Below, piece after piece: positions 40,366 to 42,936 of a stretch of DNA of 64,000 nt. This stretch comes from Methanolobus profundi (GTDB lineage: Archaea > Halobacteriota > Methanosarcinia > Methanosarcinales > Methanosarcinaceae): positions 1 through 64,000 of the forward strand of contig NZ_FOUJ01000001.1 in NCBI RefSeq assembly GCF_900114835.1, read 5' to 3'. The first letter of the stretch is position 1; each line of letters opens with the position of its first letter. The translations under genes and the position numbers were made by a program. Under the pieces are notes generated by a model that was not told the DNA's origin, did no database searches, and worked only from the letters and a program-made list of their open reading frames with translations.

Positions 40366-41136
40366 ATGCGACAAGACCACGATTATGAGTCCGAGCTTTC
40401 CGATATCCGGTTGAAGCTCTCGGATATTCACAATGACATACGTTCCTTTATTGATTCAACAGGTCATCAGCATCTTGATTCTGTCGTACGTAGTGTGAAG
40501 GATGACTATTCAGGTGTCATTGTTCGTCATCTTATGGATGATGCAGGAAAGGGACTTGAAAAGAATATGGTAAAGAAGTGTGAGATGCGTGGTGAATGTA
40601 AAGGTCTTCTATCCAATGTCCTGCAAAAGAATGCCGGTCTTATAATGAACGATACGGTCAATGAAGCCTCGATCGAAGAGAACCGTCTTGAACTAAAGAA
40701 GCTTCGTACCATGGTGCCTTATGACAAATGTGATATCTGTTTTGCAGAAGCTTCGGATATTATGTCCCGACAGGTAACTCTCATGCGTTCCATGAAGATA
40801 TACGAGACAAATAGTGAAAAGAGGTATGATCTAAGCCAGCTCCCTCCTGAGGTAGTGGTGGATGATATTCTGGAACCTTTATGCCATCAGAAACGTTTTG
40901 ATATACTCAAGGCCATCACCGGTGAGACCAGGAGCTTCTCTGCCCTGTCAAATCTCACAGGTCTTCGTGGTGGGAATCTCCTGTTCCATCTTCAAAAGTT
41001 AATGGAGAGCGGCATGATAATCCAACGACATGAGAGGGGAGATTATATGATAACAGGCAAAGGCTTCAAGGTCATGGAAGGGGTCAGTAGCATCTATTCC
41101 TCTCTGAACCCTCCGAAGGGAACAGAGAAAGAATAA
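40366..41136 (+). CDS. Winged-helix (ArsR-like) regulator with cysteine-rich sensor region
   Basis: A 256-residue protein. The C-terminal 80 residues form a winged helix-turn-helix (CHQKRFDILKAITGETRSFSALSNLTGLRGGNLLFHL). The N-terminal part is helical and has cysteines in KKCEMRGECKG (near residue 76) and DKCDICF (near 124), which might bind a metal, Fe-S cluster or heme. The layout recalls the Msr-type regulators of Methanosarcina methyltransferase genes. It is convergent with the multiheme cytochrome gene, 22 bases apart. Confidence 0.82.
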   Translation: MRQDHDYESELSDIRLKLSDIHNDIRSFIDSTGHQHLDSVVRSVKDDYSGVIVRHLMDDAGKGLEKNMVKKCEMRGECKGLLSNVLQKNAGLIMNDTVNEASIEENRLELKKLRTMVPYDKCDICFAEASDIMSRQVTLMRSMKIYETNSEKRYDLSQLPPEVVVDDILEPLCHQKRFDILKAITGETRSFSALSNLTGLRGGNLLFHLQKLMESGMIIQRHERGDYMITGKGFKVMEGVSSIYSSLNPPKGTEKE

Positions 41137-41157: not shown

Positions 41158-42528
41158 TCATTTCTTTCCATTATTCCTATTTTCAAAAATAAGTCCGGTC
41201 ACTGTTATTGCAACGAATGATAATAACACTCCAAATCCTGGTGTGGCTGCTCGTTCTTTGTTGCTGGCTCTGGTTCCTTCTTCTATGACCGAATTGAGCA
41301 AGATCTCTGCCGTGTCAAGTTCATCATTGGCACGTTCCATATTGTGAATTCCAAAGCTACCATCTGACTCCACTTTGCTGATATGGTACAATGCATTGTT
41401 ATAGTTCTCAAGTTGTTCCTGATAACTTGAGTTGTCATCTATCAGTGCAAGTGCATCACTGGCATTCCCTTCAATGAGCTCTAAATCCTGTAGTCTTTCT
41501 TTTATTGCTTCCTGGTCAGTGGCAATGATATTTGAAAGTGCTATATCGTGGCAGTCATCACATTCATTATCTGGTGGATCATCGTCATCATGGCCTACGA
41601 CGTGGCATTTCTTGCATATATTGCCAGAGTTCGGGTCTGAAAGCAATGCTGGCTGGATATCTAATGAATGCCCCGTAACAGTTGTCTCATTCCCTTCTAT
41701 CATGGTTGCCATATGGCAGTCGGTACATCCAAGTTTTACTGCATGTACATCATTGGTGTATATGGATCCGTTATACATTTCCCATTGGGTATATCTGATC
41801 ACTGTGGTGTTCCCATCAGGTTCAGCTCCTCCTGAATTATGGCAGCTTGCACAGAGCTCGGTGGATGTTGTTGTCCTAAGTTCAGCACTATGAGGTTCAT
41901 GGCAGGCGACACAGGTGATCCTCCATTCGTTGATATCCTCTGGTTCGGGCATACTATCTTCACTCAGGTCGTACAGTTCACCATCCTCGATGTTCAGTAT
42001 CGCACCTTCCGTACTTTTACAGGAAACACATGAGCTGCTGTTGATCACCTCAGTTTCCTCAATGTTAGAAGGTTCGGAATGGCTTGCCATTGTTCCGGGG
42101 TCGAATGTATCACTACTATATTCGTTCCACTCATTGTATGTCGTTTCGTGTTGGCCACTATGGCAACTCCCGCAAAGCTCAGCAGATATGTTGGACTTTG
42201 GTGTTGTTTCAGAAGGTGTTATGATATGTATCTCAAAACCCTCCACCGGAGGTTCGTGACACATTTCACACTCTGGTGATTCCCTCACCACTTCTCCATA
42301 CTATTTACTGTAAAGCCGGGGAGTACTGGCGGCATGACATGGAAGGCATGACTCAACACCCGGTTTTGTATCCTGTACCACAGGTTCGGTATAATGGGGT
42401 GAATCTTTCCACATGTCGTATTCTTCCAGATGACACTCTTTGCAATCTTCAGTGGTTGCTGCTGTGGCTAAGTTTGCTGATATAAATGTCAATAGTAGAA
42501 CGAGCAGAATTTTCCGGACCAATATCAC
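41158..42528 (-). CDS. Surface-anchored decaheme c-type cytochrome interrupted by one in-frame TAG
   Basis: Two open frames, 42528-42301 and 42300-41158, lie in the same frame separated only by TAG at 42303-42301. Read through (pyrrolysine at residue 76) they give 456 residues: a signal peptide (about 1-24), nine CxxCH and one CxxCK heme motifs (CKECH 29, CLPCH 61, CEMCH 87, CGSCH 118, CVSCK 167, CVACH 206, CASCH 226, CTDCH 268, CKKCH 305, CDDCH 323), a helical tail with GSFGIHNMERANDELD, and a PGF-CTERM anchor (PGF at 430). The tail and CxxCK recall octaheme reductases of the HAO/NrfA/OTR kind. The downstream part alone lacks a signal peptide. GTG 42528 has AAAAGGG at a good distance. If not read through, it is a pseudogene. 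Confidence 0.8.
42301..42303 (-). other. In-frame TAG codon in the multiheme cytochrome gene
   Basis: The sequence around it reads CTT TAC AGT AAA TAG TAT GGA GAA GTG. It falls in a linker between the second and third heme motifs. TAG is also used as an ordinary stop by at least seven genes here, so it is not reserved. Decoding as pyrrolysine is possible in Methanosarcinaceae. Confidence 0.6.
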
Positions 42529-42617
42529 ATCTAACACCCTTTAAAAGTTGGAACTCTTCAGTATATAGGTGTTTGTGTATGATCGGTATTTACAGGCAGT
42601 GTATGTTGATGTATCTC

Positions 42618-42650: not shown

Positions 42651-42678
42651 CTGTAATATTGTATCTCAGATATGGAGC

Positions 42679-42936
42679 CTAATATCTCTTAGGTGGTCTG
42701 TGGTTCTGGAAGCACTCTCTGCAATATACAGGTCTGCCTTCAGTTGGTTTGAATGGTACCTCGGTCTCCTGGCCACAGTCGGAGCATGTTGCTTTGTGCA
42801 TCTCTCTTGGACCACTGGGTCTGAAGTTACCTCCGCCTCTTCCGCCTCCGCGATTGCCACCTTTGAAGCCGCCTTCGTTCCTTCTGTTTCCATCTCTTGG
42901 ACCGCCTCTGAAGCCACCACTGTTGTTGTCTCTCAT
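42679..42936 (-). CDS. RGG-rich zinc-ribbon protein
   Basis: An 85-residue protein: the first half is Gly/Arg/Asn-rich with repeated GG and RGG steps (GGFRGGPRDG, GGNRGGGRGGG), the second a zinc ribbon with CSDCGQ and YCREC. Similar small CxxC-x-CxxC proteins with basic glycine-rich tails occur in methanogens and some bacteria; nucleic-acid binding is likely from the composition. AAAGGA precedes the ATG at 42936; a GTG further upstream would add 11 residues. It ends in TAG, with a strong terminator close behind. Confidence 0.8.
   Translation of the reverse strand: MRDNNSGGFRGGPRDGNRRNEGGFKGGNRGGGRGGGNFRPSGPREMHKATCSDCGQETEVPFKPTEGRPVYCRECFQNHRPPKRY

Follow-up and report, generated by a model that had tools for sequence, protein, structure and literature searches.

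A conserved in-frame TAG, probably read as pyrrolysine, in an OcwA/NrfA-type multiheme cytochrome gene of Methanolobus profundi

Architecture of the locus

The stretch of DNA analyzed here (the window) comprises 64,000 nucleotides of the Methanolobus profundi genome. Its minus strand encodes, at 41158-42528, a multiheme cytochrome in a single frame of 456 codons plus TGA, opened by a GTG start and interrupted solely by a TAG at codon 76. This agrees with a preliminary description of the locus, which reported two frames in the same register parted by exactly one TAG (42303-42301); there is no other internal stop. Upstream of the TAG, the product carries a leader resembling a signal peptide and two CXXCH motifs, again as described. 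Downstream of it follow CEMCH, CGSCH, CVSCK, CVACH, CASCH, CTDCH, CKKCH, and CDDCH, and then a hydrophobic PGF-like tail. The features of the gene are as follows.

41158-42528, minus strand: cytochrome gene read through the TAG; dN/dS 0.15 overall against a 66%-identical orthologue
42561-42568, minus strand: putative TATA-box-like element, CTATATAC, 33 nt upstream of the GTG start, proposed from the letters of the DNA only
42460-42528, minus strand: signal-peptide-like leader, residues 1-23, VILVRKILLVLLLTFISANLATA
42334-42348, minus strand: CLPCH, the heme-2 motif, residues 61-65, matching the open active-site heme 2 of OcwA
42301-42303, minus strand: in-frame TAG, codon 76, proposed pyrrolysine; TAG at this column in 7 genomes of 2 genera
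42145-42150, minus strand: His127-Glu128, aligned with the His-His motif (HH281/282) above heme 2 of OcwA (alignment-based)
42016-42030, minus strand: CVSCK, residues 167-171, an NrfA-type Lys-ligated heme motif at the heme-5 position
41248-41538, minus strand: C-terminal bundle of three helices, residues 331-427, as is typical for the NrfA/OcwA fold
41161-41241, minus strand: PGF-like hydrophobic C-terminal tail, residues 430-456, a likely surface anchor

The label "decaheme" given earlier is accurate for the count of ten motifs, but these comprise nine CXXCH and one CXXCK, the latter of the Lys-ligated type and previously counted as an ordinary heme. Likewise, the eight motifs assigned to the second part are all present, whereas the surface anchor placed there is likely rather than certain: the PGF-CTERM model TIGR04126 matches the window protein with E 0.14 and L116 with E 0.0025, below the cut-off. 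Comparable tails occur both in homologues and in other proteins of the genome.

The cytochrome gene is flanked by a small Zn-ribbon gene (42666-42920) and a convergent wHTH regulator gene (40366-41136). This arrangement is retained in several Methanolobus genomes, and the regulator and the cytochrome could be linked. The neighboring genes (mfnD/E/F, the Zn-ribbon and wHTH genes, and a Na/H antiporter) gave no hint of function, and the neighbors in a second genus that carries the cytochrome are different ones.

Protein family and predicted fold

Profile searches against PDB sequences placed OcwA of Thermincola potens (6I5B) first (E 1e-47), followed by the undecaheme cytochrome 6QVM, octaheme and pentaheme nitrite reductases, and MccA; the Pfam family Cytochrom_C552 also matches the window protein. 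A first AlphaFold model, at pLDDT 57.6, was too poor to be used; a second was usable overall (pLDDT 73.5, pTM 0.75), with the exception of the loop around residue 76, which falls under pLDDT 50 and is not reliable. Foldseek searches with this second model ranked OcwA first, and VIA-align recovered octaheme nitrite reductase and NrfA at Z 17-18.

OcwA is a nonaheme terminal reductase of the cell surface; its hemes 2 and 5 are five-coordinate and serve as active sites, each with a His-His motif over it (PMC6703420). The window protein resembles it in its heme order of 4 + 5, in the one-to-one correspondence of hemes 1-9, and in the C-terminal three-helix bundle; a ligand count from sequence comparison would also fit open hemes 2 and 5. 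It differs from OcwA in being archaeal, in its extra tenth motif (CKKCH), in the CXXCK at heme 5, and in the proposed pyrrolysine of the heme-2 module, no such residue having been described for OcwA. The CXXCK heme and the core fold are shared with NrfA and with the octaheme (ONR) nitrite reductases; the number of hemes ahead of the CXXCK heme, however, is four in the window protein, three in ONR, and none in NrfA. Thus, the protein is not an NrfA in the sense of a pentaheme cytochrome with CXXCK first, as it has ten motifs, four of them ahead of CXXCK. It is best read as an OcwA/NrfA-type surface multiheme cytochrome containing pyrrolysine.

The TAG column among homologues

Homologue searches covered 112 genomes of the family, with relatives recovered in 33, and 238 genomes of the class, which contributed only distant additions. 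When the homologues were aligned with TAG read as a residue, a TAG occupied the identical column in seven genomes belonging to two genera. Four are Methanolobus: the window genome, G058 (66% identical), the cultured M. bombayensis DSM 7082 (G039), and G050. The other three (G007-G009) are the metagenome-assembled genomes BM5_bin.6, BL5_bin.6, and UBA9310 of a second Methanosarcinaceae genus, about 40% identical. Six of the seven copies are intact and free of further internal stops; the copy in G050 is degraded, with an additional TAA and most of the downstream part deleted. Alignment at residue 76, a check that the preliminary description had proposed, hence finds the interruptions at the same codon rather than scattered. 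About 185 codons of the gene sit one base from some stop, and the agreement of seven genomes on one of them exceeds chance.

Other lineages carry a sense codon at column 76 or lack it. Met (ATG) is found in four Methanolobus homologues and Glu in Methanohalophilus-type paralogues, while in Methanococcoides and Methanohalobium-like genomes the segment is absent together with heme 2. At the locus where M. bombayensis DSM 7082 carries the TAG form, M. vulcani PL 12/M (G062) naturally has a Met form. The window genome also encodes a second, uninterrupted paralogue (G000:C16:24565-25608), which is without heme 2 and the whole TAG-column segment. About 35 residues containing the CXXCK heme-5 segment are deleted from the M. 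bombayensis copy and from the Met-form copies of Methanolobus, with the other seven His ligands kept; by sequence, a heme of catalytic type has been lost in this clade.

In Methanolobus, the TAG form spans the broader range and the Met forms fall into a single derived group (support 93/60 and 80/59), both at the same genomic locus, whereas the second genus has the gene elsewhere. A single clade of all TAG and Met forms was neither rejected (AU p 0.20) nor demonstrated by tree testing, and the sequences would accommodate either one old TAG that has been kept or a TAG gained twice at the same column. Both histories favor a site-specific reason for its presence.

Selection on both sides of the TAG

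Estimates of dN/dS by the NG86 method were low on either side of the TAG: 0.126 before and 0.153 after it between the window copy and its 66%-identical orthologue in G058, 0.18 and 0.26 between G007 and G008, and 0.17-0.22 and 0.25-0.31 in the second-genus comparisons. Downstream of the TAG, the values span 0.15-0.31 over the comparisons made. Both sides are under purifying selection, and the low ratio past the TAG indicates that this part is translated and selected.

Pyrrolysine decoding machinery in the window genome

The window genome possesses the complete apparatus, including the pylT and pylS that the earlier account had asked after. The genes pylS, pylB, pylC, and pylD stand in a row, each above its NCBIfam equivalog cut-off and adjoined by ramA and mtbC, and an intact pylT with a CTA anticodon (CUA in the tRNA) lies about 13 kb from pylS (G000:C14:254661-254732). 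In a sample over roughly 200 kb of this genome, TAG is the stop of 9 of 127 long ORFs; one of the nine is mtbB, a known pyrrolysine gene, and several others, e.g. dnaJ, reach another stop within a few codons. UAG is therefore rare and ambiguous here, which suits pyrrolysine decoding without a special signal; by the same token, since TAG also ends genes in this genome, some termination at codon 76 is likely. A PYLIS-like downstream element is not considered strictly necessary for pyrrolysine insertion, and no common RNA structure was found after the TAG, with fold z-scores ranging from -2.6 to +1.3 across forms. A selenoprotein, with UGA and a SECIS element, is not what the gene encodes, the codon being TAG. 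Cytochrome c assembly proteins were found in the four genomes checked.

The conservation of the TAG at the same place in relatives of two genera leads us to conclude that it almost certainly encodes pyrrolysine. The suggestion made in the preliminary description is thereby strengthened by the pyl gene set, by the same-column TAG, and by purifying selection on both sides, which together argue from sequence for incorporation of the residue. A neighboring dimethylamine methyltransferase gene (L074 5225-6289) is likewise TAG-interrupted, with a 111-residue extension, and is the positive control expected for pyrrolysine here.

Residue 76 and the heme-2 module

Residue 76 lies 11 residues past the heme-2 motif, inside a segment that is gained and lost with heme 2: residues ~49-82, column 76 included, are absent from homologues without this heme. 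Of the loop residues linking hemes 2 and 3 (66-86), the six intact TAG forms have only S68, O76 (pyrrolysine), and Y77 in common. The non-motif histidines 45, 101, 150, 213, 262, 287, and 395 persist in homologues without heme 2 and without heme 5, and subtraction of these seven invariant residues leaves hemes 2 and 5 with no distal His of their own, as in OcwA. All intact TAG, Met, and Glu forms compared retain His127. The next residue aligns with the second His of the OcwA motif; five of the six TAG forms have Glu or Gly there, whereas M. bombayensis, like the Met and Glu forms, has His. Taken at the sequence level, these patterns are suggestive of a tie between residue 76 and the heme-2 pocket.

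Alternative readings of the TAG

Recent pseudogenization and a base error, both raised as alternatives in the preliminary description, have become extremely improbable. Truly broken family members do exist, namely the copy in G050 with its extra TAA and deletion, that of M. euhalobius (G031), and a remnant in G045. For the window copy, however, both readings are refuted: the same TAG recurs in seven independently assembled genomes, one of them from a cultured type strain, dN/dS is 0.13-0.26 on both sides, and six copies have no other stop. Hardly any more credible is the production of two separate proteins, the second starting at an internal GTG (42291 or 42288). A GGAG does precede the GTG pair (GTG GTG, 42291-42286) in the window, as had been pointed out for GTG 42288, but it is part of the conserved Tyr-Gly-Glu codons, where it encodes Gly-Glu in uninterrupted Met forms too, and the second genus has neither the GGAG nor the internal GTG. 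A conserved internal start is accordingly rejected. The product of such a start would, moreover, be without a signal peptide, yet c-type hemes are attached outside the membrane.

Regulated or partial readthrough, yielding a 75-residue secreted diheme protein beside the full cytochrome in a ratio set by pyrrolysine supply, would draw on the use of UAG as a terminator in the same genome and on the presence of the signal peptide and two hemes within the first 75 residues. We consider it improbable: a stop at codon 76 would cut through a packed heme core between hemes 2 and 3, orthologues with Met at this locus produce the long form only, and the region past the TAG holds no conserved RNA element. 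The main rival grants that pyrrolysine is inserted, as it would be at any UAG, and denies it a special role, the TAG having happened to arise at a permissive surface position. Met or Glu at column 76 in other lineages, the low-confidence and perhaps flexible predicted loop, the Glu codon GAG one base away from TAG, and the loss or breakage of the gene in three lineages (G050, G045, and G031) all speak for it. Against it, the TAG has survived in Methanolobus while synonymous sites have become saturated (dS about 1.5 or more) and also occurs in a second genus, the O76-Y77 pair is conserved more strongly than the rest of its loop, which otherwise varies, and a merely tolerated TAG should drift to sense codons, termination being costly. 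On balance, we regard this rival as rather unlikely.

Proposed role of the pyrrolysine

The gene very probably yields one full-length, secreted, and probably surface-anchored OcwA/NrfA-type cytochrome, in which UAG76 would be read as pyrrolysine and have a putative role at the heme-2 pocket. The UAG would be decoded by the ordinary PylRS/tRNA-Pyl pair without any special RNA signal, and Pyl76, situated in the heme-2 module, may line or cap the distal pocket of heme 2. Heme 2 appears to have no dedicated His ligand; Pyl76 might be a weak ligand or a cap that Met can replace. Alternatively, its electrophilic imine might hold a nucleophile, for instance hydroxylamine or sulfite, close to the heme iron; in MttB crystals, the imine carbon of pyrrolysine takes up sulfite (PMC9842639). 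The protein likely serves extracellular electron transfer and/or the reduction of small N or S oxyanions. More tentatively, and with somewhat less than even confidence, we propose a functional part for pyrrolysine in this surface cytochrome: placed in the distal pocket of an open heme, it would bind substrates through its imine or tune the iron, and Met would be its evolutionary substitute. The Met or Glu of relatives implies that pyrrolysine is not essential to the family, and M. bombayensis retains the TAG despite the loss of heme 5.

Relation to known pyrrolysine and selenocysteine proteins

Pyrrolysine is known almost exclusively from methylamine methyltransferases, and its persistence is usually explained by that reaction. 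A 2021 review lists as pyrrolysine proteins only methyltransferases, some transposases, and Thg1 (PMC8211752). The cytochrome shares with MtmB, MtbB, and MttB an in-frame UAG conserved across species of pyl-bearing Methanosarcinales; unlike these, it belongs to an unrelated family, is a redox heme protein rather than an agent of corrinoid methyl transfer, and is exported rather than cytoplasmic. Kivenson et al., writing in Science in 2025, have reportedly described archaea that read all TAG codons as pyrrolysine. Such genome-wide reading would make pyrrolysine in non-methyltransferase proteins expected, whereas the present claim concerns a position-conserved pyrrolysine in a heme enzyme. The open-access literature, to which our survey was confined with subscription papers outside its scope, yielded no report of a pyrrolysine-containing cytochrome.

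A parallel lies in the selenocysteine-containing multiheme cytochromes, known from the Geobacter ExtKL type (PMC1914089) and from the MccSep structures (PDB 9wt8-9wtc). These are likewise c-type and acquire an extra genetically encoded amino acid through a recoded stop; they use TGA, whereas the window protein uses TAG, at another position and in another protein architecture. If our reading is true, this pyrrolysine would be the first to act in heme redox chemistry or electron transfer, extending its chemistry to redox proteins that carry heme and to electron transfer at the surface of methanogens, and annotation pipelines would have split such genes into fragments.

Decay and rearrangement at related loci

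The copy of M. euhalobius (G031) is a broken Glu form in which a TAG lies three residues off the conserved column, accompanied by a TGA and by a change of CXXCK to CVSFK; it is a real pseudogene, in contrast to the window copy. In G045, the Methanolobus locus flanked by the Zn-ribbon and wHTH genes retains a 50-residue remnant of a Met-form copy (G045:C1:2040076-2040225). In G058, transposase genes (HTH and DDE_3 halves) stand directly downstream of the cytochrome gene, where other species have the wHTH gene.
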